Of a stretch of 26,334 nucleotides of DNA, positions 9,384 through 15,046 are shown piece after piece. The DNA is from a virus. Position 1 is the stretch's first letter. Each line of letters opens with the position of its first letter. The stretch is from positions 1-26,334 of IMG/VR virus record IMGVR_UViG_3300022074_000322; one strand, given 5' to 3'. Below the pieces are notes generated by a model, which saw only the letters and a list, made by a program, of their open reading frames with translations, was not told the DNA's origin and did not search any database. Both the position numbers and the translations under genes were made by a program.

Positions 9384-9560
9384 TTATCCCTTGCGATACA
9401 ATTTGCCAACGATTTTTGAGTAGTGGCTTTTCATATCTCTAGGATCAATGACCATAAATCCTTTTGGGTTCTGACCAATCAAAGCATAGGGTCTGTTGTT
9501 TCCTCGTAAGAACCACTTCGCCGCATCCAGTGCTTGGTCTGCCGTGTTATAGTAGATCAT
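9384..9560 (-). CDS. Small hypothetical protein, 58 aa
   Basis: The frame encodes MIYYNTADQALDAAKWFLRG, then 'NNRPYALIGQNPKGFMVIDP' and a basic end. I do not recognise a family; the alternation suggests a small alpha/beta protein. The ATG at 9560 overlaps the stop of the PAPS-reductase-like gene in an ATGA junction (9557-9560), so I prefer it over an in-frame ATG at 9566. Neither has a clear Shine-Dalgarno sequence, which fits coupled translation. The terminase small subunit starts 18 bases downstream of its stop. Co-transcription with the preceding sulfur-family gene is likely; a shared function is not shown. Confidence 0.65.
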   Translation of the reverse strand: MIYYNTADQALDAAKWFLRGNNRPYALIGQNPKGFMVIDPRDMKSHYSKIVGKLYRKG

Positions 9561-10492
9561 TCGCATAAACCGTAAATGCTATGACAGGTTGTCGGTTCCT
9601 CATACACAGATATAAGGTCATATTGGACTTTACCCCTGGTTGTATTCGCCCAGTCAACCTTAGCGTTAATGGAAGCTAGACTGCTAAGCTCCTCTGGCGA
9701 CAATCCTTCTACCTCACTCGCTCTAAGTGTAAAAAACGTAGCGCGACCAACTTTGCTTGCCTCTCCAATCAATGCTTCCCACTCTGCAACGCGCTCAATT
9801 TCTTCTGGAAACCTCATAGCAATTTGTCGCAGTTCTTCTTTATTGCAACTGACGCATGGCATACACCCAACCCTTCCCATGCCTTGCTTGTATAATGGAT
9901 TTGGATCGATACCATGTTTTTTGTGCATCGAGAAAACGTCTTCAACAGTCCAATGTAAGATTGGTCTAACGATCTCAGCACCAGCATCATCCATTTCTCG
10001 CTCTGGTAGCTTTGCCCGAGCCGCAGATTCATCTGCCCGTACCCCAACCCAAGTTTGAACCTTATCATGTTGCTTCATCACAGGGAAAAGCACTTGCTGA
10101 TTAAACGGCAAAATCTTTAGATTCTCGGTGCAGAAGCGAGCCATTGTGGACGGGAAACGCCCTTTCCATAAGCAAAGGTCTAAGAAAGGATTCCCTGTTG
10201 GCTGAAGAACCGCCAGCGCACGTTCAATTTTATCTTCCGAAATTCCATCCTTCCGCCATTTTGTCTGCACAACTTCGCGTTTACGCTCGATATCCTTTGA
10301 GAAGTCCGCCTTGCATCTCTGAATCTTGATGCCTAACTTTTGTTCCAAATAATCGACATATTCATAAGTAATCGGATGTTCGTGTCCCGTATCCGCAAAT
10401 GCCAACATCGGATCAACACCACGCTCAATAGCAAGCAATGCTGTTGCTGTGGAGTCTTTGCCTCCAGACATCGATACGATGACTTTTGTCAT
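9557..10492 (-). CDS. PAPS-reductase-family (PP-loop) protein
   Basis: The 311-aa protein has the N-type ATP-pyrophosphatase loop SGGKDST at 9-15, 'LAFADTGHEHPIT' at 30-42, 'RFCTENLKI' with Cys121, and 'VGVRADES' at 149-156. A cysteine cluster GCMPCVSC gives Cys210, Cys213 and Cys216. This is the phosphoadenosine-phosphosulfate reductase superfamily as commonly found in phages. The Cys121 plus C-x2-C-x2-C pattern could bind an iron-sulfur cluster, as in DndC-type sulfur transferases and APS reductases. Bona fide assimilatory reduction is possible, but the motif set does not decide between sulfate reduction, nucleic acid thiolation and another adenylating reaction. The ATGA junction at 10489-10492 ties it to the zinc ribbon gene. 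Confidence 0.85.
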   Translation of the reverse strand: MTKVIVSMSGGKDSTATALLAIERGVDPMLAFADTGHEHPITYEYVDYLEQKLGIKIQRCKADFSKDIERKREVVQTKWRKDGISEDKIERALAVLQPTGNPFLDLCLWKGRFPSTMARFCTENLKILPFNQQVLFPVMKQHDKVQTWVGVRADESAARAKLPEREMDDAGAEIVRPILHWTVEDVFSMHKKHGIDPNPLYKQGMGRVGCMPCVSCNKEELRQIAMRFPEEIERVAEWEALIGEASKVGRATFFTLRASEVEGLSPEELSSLASINAKVDWANTTRGKVQYDLISVYEEPTTCHSIYGLCE

Positions 10493-11355: not shown

Positions 11356-11769
11356 TTATTTATCATTATTTTTGATTATCGCATCGATCCCGCTAATTCT
11401 ATGCCTTGCGAGACGGACACGTTTTTTGTCTTCTAAGGTCAATTTGCGACCCTTTGCCTTATCGTTCTCAGCGATCGACAGCACCAAATCATCCTCTAAA
11501 CGCTGTTGTGTCATCTGTTTTGTTAAAACTGGTCTGACATAGTTGGAGTCAGGTGAAAAAATTTCTGACACTGGCAACCCGAGAGTGTCCATCAAATCTA
11601 ATCCTGTAGCACCGCACACAAAACAATGAACACCCACTGACCGATCTGGCCTCTCACTGATCATCAGGTTTCGATGCTTGCCGCCATGCACCGGACAAAC
11701 GGCTCGCCACTTGTCTTGTCCTGCTGGCTGAACCTTGTCTAATCGAGCGAGGATGTTATCAACTGGCAT
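11356..11769 (-). CDS. Stand-alone CHC2 primase-type zinc-binding protein
   Basis: The 137-aa protein contains one CHC2 zinc finger: Cys25 and His28 (CPVHGGKHRN) and Cys49 and Cys52 (HCFVCGATG), preceded by 'W.A.CP.H' as in DNA primase N-terminal domains. The remaining residues are basic (KGRKLTLEDKKRVRLARHR) and no Toprim or polymerase motif is present. It is therefore only the template-recognition half of a primase. It overlaps the SF2 helicase gene by 11 bases, pointing to a joint replication-initiation role. How the catalytic part is supplied (host DnaG or an unrecognised gene outside) is unknown. Confidence 0.8.
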   Translation of the reverse strand: MPVDNILARLDKVQPAGQDKWRAVCPVHGGKHRNLMISERPDRSVGVHCFVCGATGLDLMDTLGLPVSEIFSPDSNYVRPVLTKQMTQQRLEDDLVLSIAENDKAKGRKLTLEDKKRVRLARHRISGIDAIIKNNDK

Positions 11770-13246
11770 TCTTCAACCTCGACTGCGCGTAAATCATATT
11801 CTCGCGTTTAATCCATCGAGTGACCTCATCAGAGACACTTGAGGCTGATACTGGGTTAATTTTGTTAGGCCAGACACCGAACTTACTCCGATACTTGTGC
11901 GCGACCCATCCCTTCGATTTTCCCGTCTGTCGAGCGTATAGCCATAATTCACCAAGCCATTCGCTTTTGCGGTCTATCGATATGGTTTTATTGGCGCGGT
12001 TTTGAGCCGTTAGTTTTTCAAGCACCTGATTATCAGTGACGATTTCCTCATAATTGGGAACCTCGTACCCGCAAGAACAACGAACACCGACCATCTCCTG
12101 ATAGCATTGTGGACACTGCTGTACCCTTGGTTCTTTCTTTTCTTTGATCTGATTGCGCTCAGAAAAGCGATGCTCCCCGTCATCAAGCTCAGATGGGACA
12201 ATATGTTCTGCGAACCCGTGCCGCTTCACGTTACCAGCATGATCGAGGTAGATCGCTTTGTCCTTGCCCACTGAGGTTCTCATAATACGTCCTGCTCGTT
12301 GAACGTAAGCAATCAGGCTCTTTGTTGGAAAACAATCGATCAGACAAGAGACGGACGGAGCGTCATACCCGGTATTCAAAAGTCTGGAACATGACAGAAT
12401 TTCAAACTCACCAGCATCGTGAGCCTCATATAAGTCTCGTCGAATCTCGTCGTCCGTGTATCCGTCAATATGTTCTGCGCTGATCCCAGCCTCTCTAAAC
12501 GTCTCAACCATGAATTTGGAGTGCTTGATACTTGGGCTGAATGCAATCGTCTGCCGCCCGTTGGCGTGTTTCAACCAGTTTTTAACAATATCACCAGCTA
12601 ATATCCGATCCTTTTCAATCTCTTCAGCCAAGTCATTGGGGTCAAAATCTGAGCCGCCTGTAGTCAACGCTCTGGTTTTGACGTTTGCTGTATCAACTTG
12701 ACGACCTCCGTAATACTCAACCGGACACAAGAAGCCCTGATCGAGAAGCTCTGTCGGAGTAATCGGCACAACGATATCATCGTAGTGTTTGCCCAATCCT
12801 TTACTGAATGGAGTCGCGCTGAGTCCGATAAATGGTATCGCATTGTAGGCATTCATCATCTTGCTCAAACTTTCATAGTGAGTGTGACACTCATCAACGA
12901 TAGCGATATCGAAATCTGGCATTCGATTACGTCTGGCAAGCGTTTGAATGCTTGCGATCTGAACGGGTCTCGTCGGATCAGTCATCTCATGCTGGCCTTG
13001 CATTACGCCTAAACTTAGATTGTGACCGACAAACGATTCCAAGGTCTGTTGTACCAGTTTGACTCTGTCGCAGATAAATATTGCCCGCTTGCCTTTCTGG
13101 ACTACTGATTTGATGATCGCCGCCGCCGTGATTGTCTTTCCAAAACTGCATGGTGCGGCGAGGATAGGTCTAAGGTTACCTTTCCGTATTGACTCTCTCA
13201 GCATCTCAATAGCCAGAGTTTGATGGGGGCGTAAAAATAAGCTCAC
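11759..13246 (-). CDS. SF2 DEAD/DEAH-like helicase with C-terminal zinc ribbon
   Basis: Motifs are clear (numbering from the longer ATG form): motif I APCSFGKT at 36-43, an unusual Walker A without the usual GSG; motif II DECH at 123-126; motif III SAT at 148-150; motif VI QRAGRIMR at 321-328. The order and 'LRPHQ' start are those of UvsW/type-III-Res-like SF2 helicases. A four-Cys ribbon (383, 386, 395, 397) follows, then a basic C-terminal domain. It likely unwinds DNA or R-loops at replication start. I prefer the GTG at 13246 (GTGA overlap with the upstream stop, GGAAGG at good distance); an ATG at 13261 is in frame and adds five residues. Confidence 0.88.
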   Translation of the reverse strand: MSLFLRPHQTLAIEMLRESIRKGNLRPILAAPCSFGKTITAAAIIKSVVQKGKRAIFICDRVKLVQQTLESFVGHNLSLGVMQGQHEMTDPTRPVQIASIQTLARRNRMPDFDIAIVDECHTHYESLSKMMNAYNAIPFIGLSATPFSKGLGKHYDDIVVPITPTELLDQGFLCPVEYYGGRQVDTANVKTRALTTGGSDFDPNDLAEEIEKDRILAGDIVKNWLKHANGRQTIAFSPSIKHSKFMVETFREAGISAEHIDGYTDDEIRRDLYEAHDAGEFEILSCSRLLNTGYDAPSVSCLIDCFPTKSLIAYVQRAGRIMRTSVGKDKAIYLDHAGNVKRHGFAEHIVPSELDDGEHRFSERNQIKEKKEPRVQQCPQCYQEMVGVRCSCGYEVPNYEEIVTDNQVLEKLTAQNRANKTISIDRKSEWLGELWLYARQTGKSKGWVAHKYRSKFGVWPNKINPVSASSVSDEVTRWIKRENMIYAQSRLKNAS

Positions 13247-13551
13247 TTCTCGCCCTTCCATTCTTCTACAAACTGTGATCGCAACTCGCGTGATCGGAAG
13301 AATCCATCATGCTCTGGATACATGACATGAAAGTACCGGGAATAATAAGCAGTGTAGTTATTGCAAATCTTAAATGGATCGCCCTTGGTCTCGATGTCGG
13401 TATGCCAACGGATGCGCTCAAAAACGGCTTTGCTACTGTAGTGCTGATGTCCTCGATTAATGATCTGAAACGTGAATTTGACAAACAAGTCCCAAACATG
13501 AGGATTCTTTTTATGGTACTCCCACCACTGTTGCTTGATCGTTTTACTCAT
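13243..13551 (-). CDS. Conserved phage hypothetical protein, 102 aa
   Basis: From the ATG at 13551 the product reads MSKTIKQQWWEYHKKNPHVW, then 'FTFQIINRGHQHYSSKAVFERIRWHT', 'ETKGDPFKICNNYTAYYSRYF' and 'YPEHDGFFRSREL'. This combination is a common, uncharacterised phage and prophage protein usually found beside replication genes. An ATG at 13557 in the same frame is an alternative; longer forms have no support. The end overlaps the helicase start. Its eight-base overlap with the upstream gene and lack of a strong ribosome binding site point to coupled translation. The many aromatic and His residues are a family trait; function unknown. Confidence 0.72.
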   Translation of the reverse strand: MSKTIKQQWWEYHKKNPHVWDLFVKFTFQIINRGHQHYSSKAVFERIRWHTDIETKGDPFKICNNYTAYYSRYFHVMYPEHDGFFRSRELRSQFVEEWKGEK

Positions 13552-13903
13552 AATCATCGACCAAGGTTTGTTCTTGACCCCATTGTGGAGCGAACCACCT
13601 GTAACCAAATTGTCCGCCTTGGTTAAAAAGATAGTCAATCGACAAGTCTTCGCCTGAGTGATTTTCAATATCATCGTGGTTTTCAACCATAAACGAGAAA
13701 GAAAACTCACCATTGTCTCTTTTGCAAATAGCCGCTAGTTCAACAACAAATGGATCACAATGCTCATCAATTTGCCAATAAAGTTGCTCTGGCGTATTTG
13801 AGTAAACAATTACAAGCCAATCTTGGGTTCGCATCGCAAACAGTTTCTTGTTCCGATGCTTACCTAGCAAATAAATCGGTTCTGATCGATCAATTTTATT
13901 CAT
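13544..13903 (-). CDS. Hypothetical protein, 119 aa
   Basis: The start is placed at ATG 13903, giving MNKIDRSEPIYLLGKHRNKK. GGGAGA lies seven bases before it, whereas the in-frame ATGs at 13909 and 13918 are too close to or lack such a site. The 119-aa product is acidic at the end (GQEQTLVDDYE) and contains 'LFAMRTQDWLVIVYSNTPEQLYWQIDEHCDPFVVELA'. I recognise no family. It is the first convincing gene after the inverted-repeat-rich stretch at about 14 kb and leads the helicase-primase block, so a role in early or replication functions is possible. Confidence 0.62.
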   Translation of the reverse strand: MNKIDRSEPIYLLGKHRNKKLFAMRTQDWLVIVYSNTPEQLYWQIDEHCDPFVVELAAICKRDNGEFSFSFMVENHDDIENHSGEDLSIDYLFNQGGQFGYRWFAPQWGQEQTLVDDYE

Positions 13904-14369
13904 CAGCATTTCTCCCATATTTCAGACATAGTTGTCATTTAGAGGACGTAGGGTGATCCCTGTCCACTTTGTTATCTATCGTCCATGCAGCCTCAGTCAT
14001 CAGCAGTGCTTTCGATGGTGGGTATCTCCATCCGGTAGCTCAACCGTCCCTGCCCATATTTGCATCCGAATAAAACTTTTTTTATTCCGACACTAGGCGA
14101 ATCACCTCTAACGCTGTTTGTCCCGTCCTCAAAGGTTGAGACTGCAATCTTGCTTTGACGTGCTACAGCACAATGCGACTGTTTAAACAGACACACAGAT
14201 CGGACTAAACTGAGAGAAAAGTTGAAGTTTCGGCAGATTTGCCTCAAACTATCACCAGTGCCGGAGTGCGGTCACGGGTGTTTTTCTCCTGTACTTCAAT
14301 CCGGTCTGCTAGGGGATTCTCACTCCCCGTCCGGCACTGTCTGAATCATGCTCTCCTTAATTTGAATGT
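13904..14369 (-). other. Gene-poor region dense in inverted repeats (candidate origin or structured RNA)
   Basis: This 466-base stretch holds no gene I would defend. It contains at least seven dyads: CAGTGCCGGA/TCCGGCACTG (14256-14265 with 14330-14339, ten perfect pairs); GGGGA/TCCCC nested inside it (14312-14328); GGCA/TGCC (14232-14243); CTGTTTAAACAG (14179-14190); GTGC/GCAC (14160-14171); CTCAA/TTGAG (14128-14140); GAATAAAA/TTTTATTC (14068-14087); GATGG/CCATC (14014-14032). It separates the accessory genes from the replication genes. An 84-codon open frame (13993-14247, TTG start) and two shorter frames exist, but their peptides look like nothing I know. Replication origin, regulatory RNA or both are possible. 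Confidence 0.5.
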
Positions 14370-14501
14370 TCAACCCTTTTTTTTCAATTGGCGATAAATC
14401 CACCAAACGATTACGATTTGACTAATCACCAACAACCAACCCAAACCACTCATAATCAGGTAGTAAGTTTCAGTCTCAAAAATTGTCATTGGAAAAGCCA
14501 T
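14370..14501 (-). CDS. Single-pass membrane peptide, 43 aa
   Basis: A 43-codon frame begins at ATG 14501, whose A is the last base of the upstream stop (TGATG), and ends in TGA at 14370-14372. The peptide starts MAFPMTIFETETYYLIMSGL. Residues about 15-36 (LIMSGLGWLLVISQIVIVWW) form one hydrophobic helix, and the tail IYRQLKKKG is strongly positive, which predicts the C-terminus in the cytoplasm. No family recognised. Small coupled membrane peptides in phage early or accessory regions can affect host membrane or exclusion functions; here this is only inference. A later in-frame ATG (residue 5) is an alternative start. Confidence 0.65.
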   Translation of the reverse strand: MAFPMTIFETETYYLIMSGLGWLLVISQIVIVWWIYRQLKKKG

Positions 14502-14719
14502 CAACTTCTAATTTTTACCTCGAAAGATGCACCTTCATCACCAAGCATACGGATCAGATGACCCTGTATAGATTTGTATGCACTGATGATCTCTGATATT
14601 TCGACAGGATCATAGCCTTCAGAAACAAGTTTTCTTTTCAACACACTATCATGCTCTGACAAGAAATCGGATAAGCAGTCAGCAGTTTCCGATTTGATTG
14701 AAATTACATTCATGTCCAT
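14501..14719 (-). CDS. Hypothetical protein, 72 aa
   Basis: The 72-aa product starts MDMNVISIKSETADCLSDFL and is helical and acidic in the first half, ending GASFEVKIRS. No family is recognised. An AGGAGAGACAA sequence precedes the ATG. It lies nine bases downstream of the lipoprotein gene and is coupled at its end to the 43-aa membrane peptide gene. It belongs to the accessory group driven from the promoter at 15818-15846 as far as gene order shows. Confidence 0.62.
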   Translation of the reverse strand: MDMNVISIKSETADCLSDFLSEHDSVLKRKLVSEGYDPVEISEIISAYKSIQGHLIRMLGDEGASFEVKIRS

Positions 14720-14728
14720 TTGTCTCTC

Positions 14729-15046
14729 CTAATCAATGACTGAATGACCACGACCCTCAAGGCATCGTCTCACTCGCTTTTTATATGTTGATTCCTTGCG
14801 TGGAATCATTCCTAGGGTCGCAGTCGATACATACCAGTTCATTGCAGTCTGCACCTGATCGATTGATGTGACTGTATGCTCGTCAGCAAGTTGCTTACAG
14901 TGTTGTACATCGTTTGTGATCTCAGCGGCTTTGTTCTCTGGGTATGTTCCTGACCGACCACCTGTATCGATAATCGGCTGGTAGGAACAACCTGTCATAA
15001 AGAATACTGTGATCAGCAAACTTTTATGCATTTTGCTCCCCTTCAT
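14729..15046 (-). CDS. Putative phage lipoprotein
   Basis: The N-terminus (MKGSKMHKSLLITVFFMTGC) is a signal peptide with basic residues, a short hydrophobic core and a lipobox-like MTGC, with lipid attachment expected at Cys20. The mature part has 'GGRSGTYPENKAAEITNDVQ', 'CKQLADEHT' and a C-terminal 'CLEGRGHSVID'. Two further cysteines may form a disulfide in the periplasm. Similar small lipoproteins occur in marine phages; superinfection exclusion is one possibility and an outer spanin is less likely because it is far from the lysis block. Start at 15046 gives ATGA coupling; ATG 15031 has a better Shine-Dalgarno (GGGGAG) and also leaves a functional signal. Confidence 0.7.
   Translation of the reverse strand: MKGSKMHKSLLITVFFMTGCSYQPIIDTGGRSGTYPENKAAEITNDVQHCKQLADEHTVTSIDQVQTAMNWYVSTATLGMIPRKESTYKKRVRRCLEGRGHSVID

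Follow-up and report, generated by a model that had tools for sequence, protein, structure and literature searches.

RNA II of ColE1 is a replication primer, the leader pseudoknot of T4 gene 32 is a small, gene-specific autoregulatory site, and the put element is a small cis element of some tens of nucleotides with two hairpins. To our knowledge, known antitermination RNAs are several times smaller than the RNA of about 420 nt considered here. The put RNA of phage HK022 is reported to bring about RNA-only processive antitermination (PMC9378689), and GOLLD and ROOL are described as ornate RNAs, some of which are phage-borne (PMC12286853).

The window analyzed here is the whole 26,334-nt stretch of IMG/VR virus record IMGVR_UViG_3300022074_000322, a 26.3-kb phage fragment in which all sizeable credible genes lie on the minus strand. 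A sequence-only reading had singled out an inverted-repeat-rich stretch at 13993-14350 as a candidate replication origin or regulatory RNA. Our findings indicate that this gene-free stretch almost certainly encodes a structured RNA, representing a conserved RNA family, on the same strand as the genes and with its 3' end about 18 nt ahead of the next one. We place the 5' end from the promoter and the 3' end where conservation stops. The stretch first outlined is real, but it runs on to about 13921, so that a boundary at 13993 cuts away its 3' strands. In the sense of transcription it does lie ahead of the helicase and primase-finger genes, as first read, and two small genes come between. The main elements of the locus are the following:

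13921-14339, minus strand: the whole RNA, about 420 nt, delimited by promoter spacing, conservation and a match to covariance model R1 at 13924-14136 (E 4.7e-37).
14345-14373, minus strand: sigma70-like promoter predicted from the sequence, with -35 TTGAAC (14373-14368), a 17-nt spacer and -10 CATGAT (14350-14345).
13544-13903, minus strand: first gene after the RNA (119 aa, likely start ATG 13903), which differs between relatives.
11759-13261, minus strand: helicase gene (phrog_16), a homologue of which lies downstream of the RNA in most loci.

Upstream of the RNA, the window carries genes for a Sak-like annealing protein, an exonuclease and NinG; downstream, and co-directional with the RNA, are those for the helicase and a primase zinc finger. 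The window helicase is nearest to that of Pseudomonas phage PS-1 (37%), and its terminase is nearest to those of siphophages such as Raoultella phage RP180 (53%). A phosphoadenosine phosphosulfate reductase-like gene (phrog_424; 9557-10492, minus strand) lies between the replication genes and the terminase. Across the loci compared, a helicase homologue is found near the RNA in 48 of 61, and elsewhere the neighbors are other early genes or terminase. The gene after the RNA varies: the helicase may follow directly, or after a PD-(D/E)XK-like gene (an assignment that is our own reading of its sequence) or another small gene. The RNA is followed by Sak/exonuclease/SSB genes in the L068 group and by small genes and terminase in L301, and in G014 it heads a divergent early operon. 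Immediately ahead of the helicase in L012 (4220-4910) is a gene that consists of many short tandem repeats of the GGCGATCACGAAGGC type and encodes a repeat protein rich in His, Gly and Asp.

The absence of any defensible gene, already noted from the sequence, holds: from 14370, where a 43-codon frame ends, to the gene that starts near 13903, we find none that is credible. An 84-codon frame does run uninterrupted through this stretch in the window, as a protein gene would. In the close relatives L001, L002 and L011, however, stop codons and indels whose lengths are not multiples of three disrupt it, and the stretch is therefore non-coding; these breaks, together with the compensatory base changes described below, refute a protein gene and leave that reading hardly any probability. 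The refutation test set for the sequence-only reading turned on whether the frame or the dyads are conserved; the frame is not and the main dyad is, which favors an RNA. The 43-codon frame (14370-14501, minus strand), which encodes a hydrophobic, probably membrane-spanning peptide, is conserved in L001, L002 and L011. It has an overlap at either end: its start shares letters with the stop of the preceding gene, and its stop codon with the -35 box of the RNA promoter.

Contigs reached through helicase relatives in IMG/VR made it possible to compare the sequence ahead of the helicase. A profile search of the retrieved loci, together with motif scans of the viral collection, yielded 87 locus matches, some of them on the same contig, comprising 58 distinct sequences from uncultured-phage contigs. 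Of 25 phage records examined with model R1, 23 had a single copy each; L014 and L015 carry a diverged version (E 0.0085), and four of the more distant relatives (L005, L006, L007 and L009) share GGGANAAACAGCGT and pairable flanks but differ in the remainder. When the versions from the window, L093, L058, L010, L066 and L102 served as queries in distant blastn searches, no match was returned from 50,697 phage records. The covariance model found no copy in 369 gammaproteobacterial and 289 alphaproteobacterial genomes, a weak negative in view of the strict filters and limited sample. No cultured phage or bacterial genome carrying the RNA was found in these collections, which may omit close records. 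A loose motif pattern gave only chance matches on genome contigs, and a second pattern gave none. Two sub-threshold matches in bacterial genomes (L316 and L317) were rejected, as they fall within ordinary protein-coding genes.

Folding of the minus strand is more stable than that of shuffled sequence, both for 13921-14339 (z -3.9) and for 13919-14500 (z -3.1); the plus strand folds less well than the minus strand (z -1.5 against shuffled sequence). The main pairings are long-range and crossing, and only part of one of them is present in the list of repeats (I6). The 3' half contains a double pseudoknot in which one nested set of helices (E and C) crosses another (A and B); the order along the RNA is the 5' strands of E, A, C (CAGC) and B, internal hairpins, and then the 3' strands of C (GCTG), E, B and A. 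Its elements are listed here, with z values from partner-swap controls on 22 representatives less than 85% similar:

14146-14137 with 13995-13986, minus strand: helix E, TGCAGTCTCA with TGAGGCTGCA; z 12.1, both-side changes in 9 of 11 pairs, 15 GU against 1 AC.
14130-14124 with 13948-13942, minus strand: helix A, GAGGACG with CGTCCTC; z 6.5.
14106-14099 with 13959-13952, minus strand: helix B, GGTGATTC with GGATCACC; z 8.1, both-side changes in 7 of 7 pairs.
14111-14124, minus strand: near-invariant motif GGGANAAACAGCGT, with invariant columns among 51 sequences.
14116-14113 with 14004-14001, minus strand: helix C, CAGC with GCTG, the latter inside an invariant (T)GCTGAT.
13921-13941, minus strand: conserved unpaired tail AAANGACNACTATNG, kept also where no start codon follows at once.

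Because RNAalifold on an automatic alignment was too poor to use, the helices were positioned relative to two invariant anchors. The blocks making up the alignment were kept in register with A and B, a choice that favors those two helices, and E was taken at fixed register. Among 29 sequences, standard pairs occupy 85.0% of cells, against 66.0% after shuffling and 30-50% after sliding by 1-3 positions. Both-side changes occur in 21 of the 29 pairs tested in the 3' half and in 182 cells (62.7 when shuffled), and the covariation score is 0.518, compared with 0.171 after shuffling and 0.09-0.15 after sliding. Compensatory changes thus exceed both kinds of control, as is generally expected of a structured RNA. 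Helices A, B and E all exceed their partner-swapped controls. These three helices also gave the strongest signals when pairs of 14-nt windows, positioned by the invariant anchors, were scanned against each other. Helix C is invariant, and covariation is therefore silent on it. The scan found no pairing partner for the 3' tail, whose conservation even without a nearby start codon indicates that it is part of the RNA. A loop contact near TTACGA/TCGTTGCTG that appeared to covary by eye failed the partner-swap control (z 0.7) and was rejected.

The 5' half contains a second pseudoknot, in which a strand in the loop of helix P1 pairs beyond P1 (PK1). Its parts are listed here together with the dyads noticed in the sequence alone, which fare differently among relatives:

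14339-14330 with 14265-14256, minus strand: P1, the ten-pair perfect repeat, CAGTGCCGGA with TCCGGCACTG; partner-swap z 7.3.
14312-14328, minus strand: P2, a GGGG-loop-CCCC hairpin within P1, seen in the sequence; relatives keep the stem with different letters.
14303-14282 with 14220-14201, minus strand: PK1, with 5' strands CGGATTGA (14303-14296) and GGAGAAAA (14289-14282) in the P1 loop and 3' strands (14220-14213 and 14208-14201) beyond P1; from the MFE of the window, partner-swap z 3.8 / 3.3.
14179-14190, minus strand: palindrome CTGTTTAAACAG, with a small CTGT/ACAG hairpin in the nearest relatives; the palindrome itself is not conserved.
14059-14095, minus strand: optional 37-nt A/T-rich hairpin, missing in L001, L002, L011 and most others, present in L137 and L293.

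Of the eight dyads first listed, the ten-pair repeat and the GGGG/CCCC hairpin it encloses are both genuine parts of the RNA; several others look like chance. The palindrome is there, but only its CTGT/ACAG stem is kept, and only in the nearest relatives. Similarly, the A/T-rich dyad exists (14065-14075 with 14080-14090) but forms part of the 37-nt insertion that most relatives lack.

The strand after P2 can instead pair with the 5' strand of P1 (P1alt; z 4.8 among 14 representatives, two of which, L275 and L071, may be misassigned), through CCGG/CCGG in the window, GTCGGT/ACCGAC in L007 and GTCGGC/GCCGAT in L037. P1 and P1alt are mutually exclusive, the 5' strand of P1 having two conserved partners, and their alternation can be a switch or a folding order during transcription. 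In L066 and L071, the 3' core is kept and the P1/P2 module is replaced, after a promoter-like site, by another helix pair upstream of the core (AAGAACAGGA/TCCTGTTCTT; AAGACGGG/CCCGTCTT). L008 (740-1200) and L010 (5215-5670) carry the promoter and P1/P2 as in L005-L009, followed by a different conserved non-coding stretch of about 400 nt (GTCGCCTGAAAAGGTCACCC...) that has no Rfam match and whose exact motif occurs in these two contigs only. This arrangement suggests that 5' and 3' RNA modules have been swapped between phages.

Inverted repeats could also act as such, in a DNA-level origin or regulatory site, and they do exist here. The conserved pairings cross and span 100-180 nt, however, and an RNA therefore fits better than a cruciform. 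The base changes point the same way: GU pairs exceed AC mismatches 15 to 1 in helix E, which identifies the sense RNA as the functional copy, although the same strand test is uninformative in helices A (2 GU vs 8 AC) and B (3 vs 4). A search for iterons or direct repeats in the stretch gave only short imperfect matches in two or three copies. Cumulative GC skew, proposed as a check of the origin idea, shows no inflection at the RNA in unidirectional genomes such as the window, where it is monotonic. In G014, its minimum lies inside the RNA region, where gene direction also switches; the skew just follows gene direction and thus speaks neither for nor against an origin. We consider a DNA-level site very unlikely. 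Of the two roles originally put forward, the structured transcript or regulatory RNA is strongly supported by the long-range compensatory changes, the predicted promoter and the broken frames, and the replication origin as a DNA element is not supported, given the crossing pairings, the lack of iteron-like repeats and the absence of a skew inflection in unidirectional genomes.

A search of the whole window against Rfam 15 (4227 families, including GOLLD, ROOL, group I/II introns, RNase P, tmRNA and riboswitches) gave no match at the gathering threshold. On 13500-15000, matches down to E 10 comprised only two meaningless snoRNA-type ones (E 3) outside the RNA stretch, six relatives searched at E 1 gave nothing relevant, and ARAGORN predicted no tRNA or tmRNA. 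As the RNA matches no Rfam 15 family, it is probably a new phage RNA, that is, a new family within a known kind, the large structured phage RNAs. No paper describing it was found in the open-access subset of the literature. The double pseudoknot and the near-invariant unpaired GGGANAAACAGCGT and GCTGAT recall the make-up of a catalytic core, which would suit a ribozyme, either self-cleaving or a reduced self-splicing intron. This is nevertheless quite unlikely, given that no Rfam ribozyme or intron matched to E 10 on 13500-15000 or to E 1 in the relatives, and that the RNA splits no gene, its flanks being separate genes of which the next has its own start.

About 500 nt ahead of a helicase homologue, L030 (5449-5497) has an isolated short hairpin whose stem resembles helix A and which the tail CCTCTAAAACCCAACTATG follows; its model match is weak (E 1.2), and it is possibly a chance match or a remnant. 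Pseudomonas phage PS-1 (L306:2379-2991) has an unannotated 613-nt gap that separates the cro-side genes from the helicase or from the gene preceding it (fold z -2.2), and Pseudomonas phage vB_PaeP_YA3 (L308:2272-2742) has one of 471 nt at the corresponding place (fold z -1.0). The two gaps share a 53-nt block with 91% identity and are candidates for a different RNA that occupies this position in cultured phages.

The promoter ends about 6 nt ahead of P1, at a near-fixed distance among relatives, in which it usually reads TTGACN-N17/18-TANNNT. Under strict scoring, 10 of 24 distinct upstream segments reach at least 9/12, against 0.5 expected, with the promoter of the window itself below this cut-off. 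No terminator follows the RNA in any of 31 diverse representatives; a start codon and a ribosome-site-like motif follow helix A in 28 of them, within 60 nt in 25 of those 28 (median 32 nt). The tail is also conserved in L068, L074, L289 and L301, which lack a close start codon.

Judged by this arrangement (a promoter of its own, the same direction as the genes, and no terminator before the next gene), the RNA may be a cis-acting leader of the phage early (recombination/replication) operon, a reading to which we assign a probability of roughly 0.4. Minus-strand transcription would start at the sigma70-like promoter, and the RNA would form the 5' end of the helicase/primase (early) transcript and, as a cis element, affect that same transcript. 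Folding would take place while it leaves the polymerase, its 5' part shifting from a local hairpin (P1alt-P2) to P1/PK1, and the finished 3' double pseudoknot would then control expression of the operon behind. The likeliest target would be the elongating RNA polymerase, which would read through pauses and terminators as it does with the put RNA of HK022; we prefer this target because the RNA always heads its unit, in the same direction, while the genes behind it vary. That the following gene is not constant argues against gene-specific control, and a purely translational role is made less likely by the retention of the tail in the four loci that lack a close start codon. No terminator for the RNA to overcome was identified.

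It is also possible, though less probable, that the RNA is autonomous and trans-acting, being processed off the operon transcript and working alone or with a protein, for instance by helping to take over the host or by self-assembling into a particle in the manner of the ornate GOLLD and ROOL RNAs. Its size and pseudoknotted fold, its own promoter, its single copy per genome, its retention whatever gene follows (including where a close start codon is lacking) and the occurrence of its 5' module on a different 3' RNA in L008/L010 are all consistent with such a role. The missing terminator, a start codon usually within 40 nt, and a position immediately ahead of an early gene that runs in the same direction are harder to reconcile with it, and no processing site was identified.

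A more doubtful alternative is that the RNA primes a replication origin in the manner of ColE1 RNA II: the folded transcript would remain base-paired with the template near the conserved 3' tail and be extended as a primer, and the two competing 5' pairings would serve as a copy-control or commitment switch. The RNA does sit within recombination/replication modules, as a single copy per genome and with alternative pairings close to its promoter, and in G014 it lies at the gene divergence point that is also the cumulative GC skew minimum. No replication initiator stood out among the searched G003 genes or by eye in the G014 early operon, which is weak evidence, as most genes lack annotation. 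Against priming, the skew is unchanged at the RNA in unidirectional genomes, including the window, and in G014 simply tracks gene strand; furthermore, no G-rich/C-rich hybrid site was recognized and no antisense RNA was seen. Somewhat more doubtful still is the wider proposal of a new class of phage RNA that would start DNA replication in tailed phages without a recognizable initiator, with a 5' switch and a primer at the 3' tail. The trans-acting RNA and the RNA-primed origin nonetheless fit nearly as well as the cis-acting leader and are its main rivals.

It is uncommon for a large RNA to have a conserved pseudoknotted fold, and those that do mostly play a central part. The RNA described here occurs in numerous uncultured phages belonging to several types, whose compact genomes retain it at the start of an early operon, where it could add an RNA-based route to controlling, or starting, phage replication. 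Its fold, invariant motifs and apparent 5'/3' module swapping make it a ready model for structural and genetic work.

Compared with known systems, the RNA resembles the T4 gene 32 leader in placing a pseudoknot upstream of a phage DNA-metabolism gene, and differs in that the gene following it varies. With ColE1 RNA II it shares the character of a folded transcript of several hundred nucleotides with its own promoter, alternative 5' pairings and a location near replication functions; unlike in ColE1, priming is conjectural here, with no sequence relation and no antisense RNA I recognized. Like GOLLD and ROOL, our RNA is large, elaborate, conserved and structured, but it is smaller than they are, matches no covariance model of theirs and stands at an operon head without a terminator. 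With its length of about 420 nt, crossing helices and multiple pseudoknots, it also departs from the small two-hairpin put type. It is nevertheless to the put RNA of HK022 that the arrangement comes close: a structured RNA that directly follows an early phage promoter, would be transcribed together with the operon and would act whichever genes come next; by analogy, the RNA perhaps works as put does.
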